Assembly (NCBI RefSeq): GCF_024711105.1
Contig: NZ_JANJTL010000060.1
Location: 1 to 61,451 of the forward strand
DNA: 61,451 nucleotides
From: Brevundimonas sp.
GTDB taxonomy: Bacteria > Pseudomonadota > Alphaproteobacteria > Caulobacterales > Caulobacteraceae
Reading direction: 5' to 3'
Part shown: piece after piece, positions 4,001 through 29,393 of the stretch
Numbering within the stretch: the stretch's first letter is position 1
Layout: the number at the start of each line of letters is the position of its first letter
The notes under the pieces: model-generated
The model's database searches: none
Told to the model about the DNA's origin: nothing
What the model saw: the letters and a program-made list of their open reading frames with translations, nothing else
Made by a program: the position numbers and the translations under genes

Positions 4001-4033
4001 TTGGCATGTGCGATGCACCGCGCCCGGTGAGCC

Positions 4034-4152
4034 ATCCGGCTCTGTCTCGGATTGGTACGGGCGTTTAGCTCAGACGCGCAGAGCGGCGGCCCCTTAAGCC
4101 GCAGGTCCGTGGTTCAAGTCCACGAACGCCCCCCAGTCCGAGACGGCCGGAT
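4034..4152. repeat. Long imperfect inverted repeat enclosing the tRNA-like gene
   Basis: ATCCGGC (4034-4040) pairs with GCCGGAT (4146-4152), and GTCTCGGA (4044-4051) pairs with TCCGAGAC (4137-4144), interrupted only by a TCT/G bulge. The 77-base tRNA-like sequence at 4059-4135 is the loop. In RNA this would form a 15-pair leader-trailer helix holding the folded tRNA. This is seen directly in the sequence; its role in processing or protection is inference. Confidence 0.7.
4059..4135 (+). tRNA. tRNA-Lys-like gene (anticodon CTT), divergent
   Basis: The cloverleaf closes perfectly. The acceptor stem is GGGCGTT/AACGCCC (7 pairs), the D stem GCTC/GAGC, the anticodon stem GCGGC/GCCGC, the variable loop AGGTC, and the T stem CGTGG/CCACG with loop TTCAAGT; CCA is encoded. 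Read by position the anticodon is CTT (Lys), and the T arm and acceptor resemble bacterial tRNA-Lys. Several bases are abnormal. Position 33 is C instead of the near-universal U, the D loop (AGACGCGCA) lacks the GG pair that docks to the T loop, and the discriminator is C. It may be a degenerate copy, a specialised tRNA or a tRNA-like RNA rather than the housekeeping tRNA-Lys. Confidence 0.6.
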
Positions 4153-4180
4153 CGCCGGCGCGTCGGAGTAGGAGGCGGCT

Positions 4181-4966
4181 GTGTTGGACGGATCTTTGGA
4201 AAACCCACTGGCGGCGGCCGTCTTGGTCGCCGCATTTCTCGTCCTAGCGCCGTTGTCGCTGACCGTGCTGCGCGAAGGCCGTTCGGGAGACCCCTTTACC
4301 TGGCTCGAAGTGCTCGGCCGCTATGGCCTGATCGTGACCTGGGCCTTCGTGGCGCCGCTCGCGGTCGCCAACCACTTGCGTCCCGAGACCCTGCTCTGGC
4401 TGTTCGGTCCGGAGGTCGGGGACGGCGGGCTGGCCGAATATGCGACCGTGGCCGCCTGGGCCTGCGCCGCCATTCTCGCCGCCCGGCTGGCGCTCGTCAC
4501 CCAAGGTTGGGAGCGGGCGCTTTACGCGCTGGCCGCCGCCGGCGCCTTCGTCCTGTTCGGAGAGGAGATCAGCTGGGGCCAGTGGCTGTTCAACTGGGGT
4601 TCGCCCGCGTTCTTCGCCGAAAACAACCTGCAGTCCGAAACCAACGCCCATAATTTCTTCCCTCCCGAGGTCTTCGACGCGGCCTATGCGATTGCAGGCC
4701 TGATCATCGCCGGCCTAGTCGGGATGCTGCGCTTCGGGCGTGGGCTCGGCCCGATCGTCACGGCGCTGCGACAATGGCCTCCGGCGCGCTGGATCGGCCA
4801 CAGTCGGCACGGCGTGCCCCTGGCCTTCAGCGCCGCGGTGCTGATGCAGCACCACATGTTCCAGGAGGTGGCCGAGATGGCCCTGTCGCTGGCGGTGCTC
4901 TACGCCCTGTGGTGGACGGTCTCGCGCGCCGCGCTAGGGCGCCCGGTCGAGTTCGCGCCAGCCTAG
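4181..4966 (+). CDS. Polytopic membrane protein of unknown function, paralogue A
   Basis: This 261-residue protein has about seven hydrophobic segments. The GTG start is chosen because AGGAGG lies five bases upstream and because 'MLDGSLEN' aligns with 'MFDGSIEN' of paralogue B at 6358. Conserved between the two are 'EEISWGQ', then 'NNLQSETNAHNFF', then 'QHHMFQE' near the C-terminus. These polar residues (Glu, His, Asn) inside membrane-spanning regions look like a metal or catalytic site, by analogy with membrane hydrolases; that is inference. The gene converges on and overlaps the O-antigen ligase-like gene by 33 bases, suggesting a role in envelope glycan or lipid metabolism. Confidence 0.7.
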   Translation: MLDGSLENPLAAAVLVAAFLVLAPLSLTVLREGRSGDPFTWLEVLGRYGLIVTWAFVAPLAVANHLRPETLLWLFGPEVGDGGLAEYATVAAWACAAILAARLALVTQGWERALYALAAAGAFVLFGEEISWGQWLFNWGSPAFFAENNLQSETNAHNFFPPEVFDAAYAIAGLIIAGLVGMLRFGRGLGPIVTALRQWPPARWIGHSRHGVPLAFSAAVLMQHHMFQEVAEMALSLAVLYALWWTVSRAALGRPVEFAPA

Positions 4967-6357: not shown

Positions 6358-7173
6358 ATGTTCGACGGCTCGATTGAGAACCTTCCGGTCCTGGTGGCCT
6401 TCGTGCTCGCCTGCCTACTGGCGGCGCCCGTTTCGGCGGCGGCGCTGTTCCGGCCGGGGCGTTCTGTCCTCGCACCCAGCAAGGGCGCAGACCTGGCCGG
6501 CGCCGGTGTGCTGGTCCTGCTGTGGGTCGGGCTGATTCCGCTGAACGCCTGGGCGCACCTGTCGGGCCAGCCATTCGAATGGGTTTTCGGCTCCGAGACC
6601 TTCGACGGCGGCTTCGTCGAGACCCTGACCTTCGTCGGCCTGATGTTTGTCGCCTGGCTGTCGGTGCGCCTGGCGCTGCGGCGCGAGGCGCCGCTCGCGG
6701 TCCGGGTCCTGGCCGTGCTGTTCGCCGTGGGCCTGGTTTTCGTGGCGCTTGAGGAGGTGAGCTACGGCCAGCACTGGTTCCACTGGCGCGCCACCGGCGC
6801 CTTCGCTGAGGCCAATCTCCAGCACGAGACCAACCTGCATAACTTCGTCGATCCGCGCCTCTACGACTGGCTCTACGAAATCATCGGCGGTGCGGCCCTG
6901 GTGGCCGCGCTTCTGGTTCGGGTTGGCCTGATGCGCGGCCTCCTGGACCGGCTCGGCCCGCTCGGCGAAACCGTGTCGCGGAGCCGTTACGCCCTGGCCC
7001 TGACGATGACCGCGTCGGCCTTGCTGCTGCACGAAGTGTTCGAGGAGCTGTCCGAATTCGCGGCCGTCTCCGCCCTCGTCTATGTCGCCATCGTCAGCTT
7101 CGAGCTCTGGCGGACCCGGCTGGCCCCGGCCGACGATGCATCATCACCGGGCTACGCGCCCCACCGCGCCTGA
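6358..7173 (+). CDS. Polytopic membrane protein of unknown function, paralogue B
   Basis: The protein has 271 residues when started at the ATG at 6358 ('MFDGSIEN'), which matches the start of paralogue A. The longer tracked form would overlap the promoter of the divergent O-antigen ligase-like gene. It shares the conserved polar motifs with A: 'EEVSYGQHWF', 'ANLQHETNLHNF' and 'LLLHEVFEELSE'. Seven or so hydrophobic helices are evident. Keeping Glu, His and Asn in the same places in two diverged copies argues that they form an active or ion-binding site. The two copies bracket the ligase gene, so gene duplication around it is likely. I cannot name the family. Confidence 0.7.
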   Translation: MFDGSIENLPVLVAFVLACLLAAPVSAAALFRPGRSVLAPSKGADLAGAGVLVLLWVGLIPLNAWAHLSGQPFEWVFGSETFDGGFVETLTFVGLMFVAWLSVRLALRREAPLAVRVLAVLFAVGLVFVALEEVSYGQHWFHWRATGAFAEANLQHETNLHNFVDPRLYDWLYEIIGGAALVAALLVRVGLMRGLLDRLGPLGETVSRSRYALALTMTASALLLHEVFEELSEFAAVSALVYVAIVSFELWRTRLAPADDASSPGYAPHRA

Positions 7174-27686: not shown

Positions 27687-29393
27687 ATGGACCGGATGCG
27701 CGCCCTGCTCCTCAGGTTGCTGACCAACCGCCGCAGCGCGATCGTGCTCTGGACGGCGGTCGGACTTCTGGTCGCCGGCGTCCACTTCTGGCCGGTGGCC
27801 TTTCCTACGGCGAACGCCGCGCGCCACTCGGTCACACTGGGCGCGGCGGAACGCGCCGAACTGAGGGCGCCCACGCGGTCGGAACTCGAGATGCTGCGCA
27901 GCCTGCCGCTCCTGCGCGATCCTCTCGCGCCGGCCTTTCCGCCGGCCCAGGCCGCGCCGCCGATCGCCAGCGGCCAGGTTTTCGGCATGCGCGACGAGCT
28001 GCGCGCCCCCTTCATCAGGGCGACCCAGGCGCTTCGGACCGCGGCGCCCGCGTGTGCGGCCTGGATTCAGGGCGACGCCGACAGCGTCCCGGCCGAGATC
28101 GCCGACGCGCAGGCGGCGATGGGCGAGCTAGCGAATGGCTCCAGCCAGGACCGCGGCCTGTTCCTCTACCATCAGGGGCTGGTCGACCTGTGCGGTCCAA
28201 ATCCCGGATCAGCGGCCCAGGCCTTCGAGCGGGCGCTCGCCGAATACGCCGCCTATGCGGAATCGGCGCCAGAACGCGAGCCTTTGGTTGAGCGGCGGCT
28301 CGCTCAATACCAGGCGGTGACACACTATGGCCTGGGCTTGGCGCTGGTGGCCTCGGACGACGACCTCCGCCGCGCCGACGCCGAGTTCGCAAGCGCGCTG
28401 GAGGCGGCGACGCGCGCGAAGTCGCACCGGCAGCTGGGCCCCTTCGTCAATCTCGCCGCCTGCCAGGATGGTCCGAACTGCGACCTCTTCGATTTCAGCA
28501 CGGCCCACATCCATAACGCCCGTCTGTTTGCGCGGATGCGGGAGGGGCAGGGGTCCGACGCCTATGAGGACGCCGATCCGGCGCTGGCGTCGTCGCCAGG
28601 CTATGTGCTGGCCTATCCGGAGCTGGCGGCCAATCTGGCCGCAGCGGCTGCCGCGCAAGGCGACTTCGAGACGGTCGCCCGGCTGTACCAGACCCTGAAG
28701 GCCCGGCAGGGCGACGAGGAAGCGGATCCGGAAGACCCACCGTCGGAAACCTGGGCGCGTATCGCGGGCCTGGCCGTCGTGTCGCCGAGACCGATCTACG
28801 CGGAGGGGGACCCGTGGCCGCTCGGCGCGTCCTCCCCGACGCGCGAGATGTTCGAGTCGCGCATCCGGGCGCGTGACGAGGCGTCCTGGTTCCCGGCGGT
28901 TTCGCTGGGCGCGGAGGACCGGGAGATCCTTGATCTCTGGCTCTGGGTCAGGCGCGAACGGCAACTCCTGGAAACCGGTCAGTTTCGCGCCTTCCGCAGC
29001 GACGGTTCGACCATCGCCAACCTGGGTCCCGAGACACGGGATTTCCTTGAGACCTGGCGCAGTGAGGTGTCCGGACGGCTTGCCGACGCCCTGCTGGAGC
29101 GCGCCGAGACAACCCGCCGCCGTAACGGCCTGGCCGAGGCGCGTCCGCTGCTGGCCCTCGTCGACAGCGACGGCTTCCCCTGGTTCTGGGAACGGCCGCT
29201 TGCGCGGATAGGCTATTACAACGACCGCCCGCCGCTGTGGGTGGCCGGATGGGGCCTGTTCTGGCTGGCCGTAACCGGGCTCGCCTTCTGGCTTCATCTG
29301 CAGGTGGCGGCCGGCTATCGCCGCACCTTCGGTGCGCGGCACCACTCGGATCGCATGGCGCACGGCACGGAAAGCGCGTCCGGCAGGCCATGA
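27687..29393 (+). CDS. Membrane-tethered periplasmic helical-repeat (TPR-like) protein
   Basis: The 568-residue protein has a membrane helix near each end: residues 18-38 ('AIVLWTAVGLLVAGVHFW') and about 525-548 ('GWGLFWLAVTGLAFWLHL'). The 480 residues between are alpha-helical, with TPR-like pairs such as 'GLFLYHQGLVDLCGPNPGSAAQAFERALAEY' (shortened here to its sense: a helix-turn-helix with Ala/Gly/Tyr spacing). They probably lie in the periplasm and serve as a protein-binding scaffold. Start follows the GTPase by eight bases, and the stop overlaps the next start by ATGA. No enzyme motif seen. Family not recognised. Confidence 0.7.
   Translation: MDRMRALLLRLLTNRRSAIVLWTAVGLLVAGVHFWPVAFPTANAARHSVTLGAAERAELRAPTRSELEMLRSLPLLRDPLAPAFPPAQAAPPIASGQVFGMRDELRAPFIRATQALRTAAPACAAWIQGDADSVPAEIADAQAAMGELANGSSQDRGLFLYHQGLVDLCGPNPGSAAQAFERALAEYAAYAESAPEREPLVERRLAQYQAVTHYGLGLALVASDDDLRRADAEFASALEAATRAKSHRQLGPFVNLAACQDGPNCDLFDFSTAHIHNARLFARMREGQGSDAYEDADPALASSPGYVLAYPELAANLAAAAAAQGDFETVARLYQTLKARQGDEEADPEDPPSETWARIAGLAVVSPRPIYAEGDPWPLGASSPTREMFESRIRARDEASWFPAVSLGAEDREILDLWLWVRRERQLLETGQFRAFRSDGSTIANLGPETRDFLETWRSEVSGRLADALLERAETTRRRNGLAEARPLLALVDSDGFPWFWERPLARIGYYNDRPPLWVAGWGLFWLAVTGLAFWLHLQVAAGYRRTFGARHHSDRMAHGTESASGRP

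Follow-up and report, generated by a model that had tools for sequence, protein, structure and literature searches.

A rare, conserved tRNA-Lys(CTT)-like gene family of Brevundimonas with a sigma-54-type promoter motif and a leader-trailer helix over the CCA end

Introduction

Pairing of a tRNA leader with the RCCA end of the precursor inhibits or slows RNase P (PMC9433436), and in the E. coli pre-tRNAs concerned about two such pairs form, at positions -1/-2. In bacterial Y RNAs of the YrlA type, a tRNA-like domain sits on a stem made from the 5' and 3' ends, which tethers Ro60/Rsr, and the RNA belongs to an RNA-repair operon under RtcR and sigma-54 control (PMC8394870). The rsr promoter of Salmonella is a sigma-54 promoter (PMC3844500). 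tRNA-like mRNA leaders such as the thrS operator place a tRNA-shaped element upstream of an ORF (PMC8394870 and general knowledge). Finally, for class II LysRS, A73 is a lysine identity element of the tRNA (PMC9976931).

The window analyzed here is a stretch of 61,451 nt from Brevundimonas sp. (genome G000, contig NZ_JANJTL010000060.1). An earlier note made from its sequence had described a tRNA-Lys-like gene held in an inverted repeat. Beyond this, the present analysis provides a promoter motif, a downstream gene and a weaker helix that is common in the canonical tRNA-Lys(CTT) genes of the genus. The locus differs from each of the systems above. Instead of two pairs at -1/-2, an unpaired TAC/GAC linker is followed by 4 to 12 pairs starting from CCA. 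Unlike the YrlA system, it combines a complete tRNA, with anticodon and CCA, with the absence of Rsr and RtcR. Unlike leaders of the thrS operator type, it consists of a full tRNA gene with CCA, for which no link to a synthetase gene was found. To our knowledge, control of a tRNA gene by an alternative sigma factor has hardly been described.

Results

The tRNA-Lys(CTT)-like gene

The gene was called by ARAGORN as a tRNA-Lys with anticodon CTT (Table 1), and it scored 58.2 bits, above the cut-off, with the general tRNA covariance model RF00005 in a profile search of the genome. Rfam scans of the window returned no matches, the tRNA included, despite this score; the tRNA identity of the feature rests on ARAGORN and the RF00005 genome search. 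The anticodon loop reads CCCTTAA and therefore has C33, not U33. The D loop, AGACGCGCA, retains G18 and has C in place of G19, the discriminator is C73, and CCA is encoded. A tRNA-Lys-like gene with C33, a D loop without GG and a C discriminator, as first described, was thus confirmed by ARAGORN, the covariance model and the sequence. Compared with an elongator tRNA-Lys, the gene has the cloverleaf with a UUU/CUU anticodon, and it lacks the A73 expected for class II LysRS as well as U33 and the G18-G19 pair (here G18-C19).

Genome G000 also contains a canonical tRNA-Lys(CTT) (C36:30980-31055; U33, GG, A73) and a tRNA-Lys(TTT) at C123. Therefore the odd gene is an extra one, and the concern that it might be the only Lys(CTT) tRNA of the genome no longer applies. 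The canonical tRNA-Lys(CTT) was matched in 110 of 131 Brevundimonas species, nearly always once per genome. It shares the anticodon, the cloverleaf, CCA and, in many species, a short helix (GACGA/TCGTC), much shorter than that of the window. It differs by G18G19, U33 and A73, and is about 75% identical to the odd tRNA over the first 72 nt. Elsewhere in the window, ARAGORN called a 95-nt tRNA-Pro(agg) on the reverse strand (27863-27957), which is absent from the RF00005 matches of the genome and is probably a false call.

Table 1. Features of the tRNA locus, in window coordinates.
Feature	Position	Strand	Basis or remark
Sigma-54-type -24/-12 promoter motif TGGCATG-TGCG-ATGCA	4002-4017	+	10/12 consensus positions
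Predicted transcript start (~4027) and 5' leader hairpin GAGCC-ATCC-GGCTC (4029-4042)	4027-4042	+	predicted from promoter; sequence
Outer 5' arm ATCCGGC	4034-4040	+	pairs with 4146-4152; not seen in relatives
Inner helix 5' arm GTCTCGGATTGG	4044-4055	+	12 bp with 4133-4144; covarying counterparts in relatives
tRNA-Lys(CTT)-like gene, 77 nt	4059-4135	+	ARAGORN; tRNA covariance model
Inner helix 3' arm CCAGTCCGAGAC, takes in CCA	4133-4144	+	sequence, fold
Outer 3' arm GCCGGAT	4146-4152	+	sequence, fold
Shine-Dalgarno-like AGGAGG of next gene	4170-4175	+	sequence; 17 nt past outer arm
Membrane protein gene, 261 aa, GTG start	4181-4966	+	ORF

Distribution and conservation of the family

The odd tRNA family comprises six intact copies in 5 of the 131 Brevundimonas species, namely G000 (two copies, the second on contig C156), G004, G006, G084 and G107. 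A broken, rearranged copy was found in a sixth species, G013. The copies occupy about five genomic sites. When 84,980 species were searched with a strict pattern, the only records matched corresponded to Brevundimonas loci and to one Mycobacterium tRNA array; two viral contigs were also matched. Phage and plasmid searches returned only ordinary tRNAs, which matched part of the query at no more than 90% identity. The tRNA-Lys(CTT) genes of the M. talmoniae array (L077) and of the IMG/VR contigs (L078 and L079) share with the family the GG-less D arm AGCTCAGnnGCGCAGAGC and CTTAA in the anticodon loop. They differ from it by A73, by their location in an array or on a viral contig and by their overall identity of only ~69-74%. 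The common D arm hints at a phage-type origin.

The tRNA bodies of the six copies are 92-99% identical, whereas leaders and trailers diverge; G006 and G107 tRNAs differ at few positions. Compensatory changes were observed at 6-67 and 27-43. Anticodon CTT, A37-A38 and CCA are invariant, and every one of the six copies has C or U as N73. At position 33, the window has C, G006 has A and the remaining four copies have U; C33 and A33 suggest a relaxed demand on decoding. Neither integrase nor transposase genes were found adjacent to the copies. In G107, the odd tRNA is preceded at ~220 nt by another odd tRNA-like gene (L044:1219-1295), with an ambiguous anticodon, a T discriminator and CCA.

Leader-trailer helix

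The inverted repeat had been described as 15 pairs enclosing the tRNA exactly. The arms are indeed present, but the inner helix consists of 12 consecutive pairs (one of them G-U) rather than 8, and includes CCA. It is separated from the acceptor stem by TAC on the 5' side and by C73 on the 3' side. The outer arms add 7 pairs, in competition with the local leader hairpin. The whole fold reached an MFE of -85.1, compared to -62.1 ± 3.7 in shuffled sequences (z -6.1), indicating that arm pairing exceeds chance. With -25.1 kcal/mol, the leader-trailer duplex of the window was stronger than any other in a comparison of G000 tRNAs and family copies, and none of 300 shuffles equalled it. Leu(caa) and Tyr, two ordinary tRNAs of G000, likewise showed strong leader-trailer pairing; thus, such a helix is not unique by itself. 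The 4044/4133 pair was not listed by the repeat search; evidence for this pairing comes from the fold and the sequence letters.

Among the family copies, the long 12+7 form was found in the window only. Duplex energies for the other copies were -17.5 (G006), -14.7 (G004), -14.2 (G084), -9.6 (G107) and -7.0 kcal/mol (G000 copy 2), the last two being no better than shuffles. In every copy, the leader can pair with its own trailer beside CCA. At positions 77-79, with registers set by hand in six related copies, 17 of 18 pairs were formed, against a mean of 12.2 with permuted trailers, and 8 of 720 permutations were as good. Moreover, four of the six helix pairs showed changes on both sides (alignment A1). 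These comparisons suggest that a short covarying leader-trailer helix is kept in most copies with differing flanks, and is weak in two. Conservation of the helix in relatives therefore holds for the inner helix in this short form and fails for the long one. In the canonical tRNA-Lys(CTT) genes of the genus, a run of at least 5 leader-trailer pairs was present in 19 of 33, versus 2.9% of shuffles. The window can thus be seen as the extreme of a habit of the genus.

Sigma-54-type promoter motif

The sigma-54-type motif upstream of the tRNA is the sole 16-mer scoring at least 10 on either strand of the 61 kb. Such a motif lies at -56 to -59 from the tRNA in five of the six family copies (scores of 9 to 11 of 12), G000 copy 2 being without a recognizable site. 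For 39 ordinary G000 tRNAs, the best motif score was 9 and positions were scattered. rpoN was found in all eight genomes tested, including that of the window. Both hallmarks of a sigma-54-dependent gene, a -24 GG/-12 GC motif at a fixed place and rpoN, are therefore present. This link between the odd tRNA family and a promoter motif is new in the present analysis, and the motif predicts sigma-54 transcription of the tRNA. The transcript would start at ~4027, since this position is ~12 nt after the -12 element, leaving a leader of ~32 nt. Comparable leader hairpins of 4-5 bp were recognized by eye in most other copies.

Of the 33 canonical tRNA-Lys(CTT) loci examined, three of which had been chosen by the motif itself, about 10 (L116, L119, L123 and others) displayed a sigma-54-like motif between about -38 and -42, and in two the motif was perfect (12/12). 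The motif overlaps a hairpin in several of these genes.

Altogether, a conserved, rare, promoter-bearing tRNA-like unit is well supported by the sequence comparisons.

Downstream genes and presence or absence of the tRNA block

By eye, the 45 nt that separate the tRNA from the membrane protein ORF show no terminator-like break. The product of this ORF is 36% identical to that of the gene directly behind the G004 tRNA, which is located in a different neighbourhood. The genes behind the G006 and G107 tRNAs belong to a different family, acetyltransferase-looking by eye, and their proteins are 62-63% identical. Pfam and NCBIfam gave no matches for the membrane protein or for the GNAT-looking protein. 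For many tRNA-less homologues of the G006/G107 downstream gene, a sigma-54-like site precedes the match by 65-88 nt. Overall, four of the six tRNAs are followed by a co-oriented gene. G000 copy 2 and G084 have a convergent gene next to the tRNA, and a role as an mRNA 5' module therefore does not extend to every copy.

In G016 and G066, syntenic orthologues of the G004 membrane gene (81-82% identity) are tRNA-less and keep the sigma-54 site. A block of ~103 nt comprising the tRNA and the stem arms, with exact ends that depend on the alignment, is present in G004 and missing from these two genomes. No target-site duplication was evident at the G004 site, and the stem arms vary among copies, so that neither hallmark of a MITE-type element, target-site duplication or terminal inverted repeats common to the copies, was recognized. 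Gain appears more likely than loss, because the tRNA is rare and its sites are scattered. The earlier suggestion of a mobile copy is partly upheld, by the dispersed loci and by the presence or absence of this block.

Neighbours of the G004 locus include an M20 peptidase (possibly DapE-like), an MFS-like transporter and a dCTP deaminase. A link to lysine biosynthesis was considered for this locus and rejected, nothing similar being found at the other loci. Within the window, a paralogue of the membrane protein is encoded at 6358-7173 (+), with a weak sigma-54-like site (score 9) ~61 nt before the likely ATG. The end of G000 copy 2 (L065, on G000:C156) and that of a convergent PilZ-like gene lie 7 nt apart, and the surrounding genes encode an EAL/GGDEF protein, PilZ-like proteins and a response regulator (L065 1550-4231, 3222-3521).

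Discussion

The reading that we prefer, and hold with middling confidence, is that of a conditionally transcribed, selectively kept tRNA-like 5' module, which would head sigma-54 transcripts and have a putative regulatory role. It builds on the family itself, the promoter motif, the placement, the partly covarying helix and the presence or absence of the block at one locus; from these we infer sigma-54 transcription, processing and regulation. Transcription would begin near 4027 from the sigma-54 promoter, and the short hairpin would form first. The leader-trailer helix would then hold the cloverleaf, with the CCA end paired, and the transcript would run on into the membrane protein ORF, with the tRNA as its first element. 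Leader-CCA pairing would slow RNase P and 3' processing. This effect is probable: an influence of the helix on RNase P had been anticipated in the earlier note, and finds support in the slowing of RNase P by leader-RCCA pairing (PMC9433436). Maturation of the tRNA may therefore be tied to the fate of the downstream mRNA. A specialized RNA, as also proposed there, is supported in part, and fits the promoter motif, the all-pyrimidine N73 and the helix over CCA.

A pyrimidine at 73 and the lack of U33 suggest that the odd tRNA mainly serves something other than ordinary AAG decoding. Nevertheless, the invariant anticodon and CCA leave room for a real but conditional translational tRNA-Lys(CUU). 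Sigma-54 would then boost the supply of AAG-decoding tRNA, the helix would delay maturation or protect the precursor, and the position relative to genes would be incidental. The cloverleaf and A37-A38, also invariant in six copies, the 58 bits with the tRNA model and U33 in four of six copies agree with this view, as does the frequent leader-trailer helix of the canonical genes. Moreover, the D-loop type recurs in apparently normal A73 tRNA-Lys(CTT) of viral contigs and of a tRNA array. We nonetheless regard a translational tRNA as somewhat unlikely, given that N73 is a pyrimidine in six of six copies while class II LysRS needs A73 (PMC9976931), that position 33 is C in the window and A in G006, that G19 is lost, and that the genome already has a canonical Lys(CTT) gene. 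N73, position 33 and G19 are the reasons for preferring the 5' module.

A decaying, horizontally acquired copy of a phage-type tRNA, scattered by past mobility and flanked by chance or leftover repeats, would account for the patchy occurrence (6 of 131 species, about five sites), the rearranged G013 copy, the presence or absence of the block, the loss of U33 in two copies and the D-arm type common to two viral contigs and the Mycobacterium array. However, the tRNA bodies have remained nearly identical despite diverged flanks and, in G006 and G107, adjacent proteins that are 62% identical. The compensatory changes, the promoter motif at a fixed distance in five copies and the lack of an adjacent integrase or transposase also argue against it, making this explanation quite unlikely. 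Decay, which had been envisaged earlier, is thus not supported for the family, yet one copy, in G013, is rearranged.

The overall plan and the predicted sigma-54 control are like those of Y RNAs (PMC8394870), and a stem from the 5' and 3' ends does surround the tRNA-like domain. Here, though, the tRNA is retained in full, anticodon arm and CCA included. TROVE (Ro60/Rsr) was found in none of the tRNA-bearing genomes and in 1 of 131 Brevundimonas genomes (G073:C1:311405-312289), itself without the odd tRNA, and RtcR in none of the 131. Since Rsr and RtcR are absent, membership of the Y RNA/RtcR RNA-repair system is largely refuted and was dropped as highly improbable.

Returning to the 5' module, a broader proposal, which we judge unlikely at present, is that the family represents a new class of tRNA-like 5' modules under sigma-54 control and partly mobile, each a complete tRNA in a CCA-sequestering helix. 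Such modules would have spread from one sigma-54 promoter to another among unrelated genes, and RNase P processing or the charging state would control the downstream mRNA. Situated between a sigma-54 promoter and genes unrelated to one another, a tRNA of this kind would tie tRNA processing to conditional gene expression.
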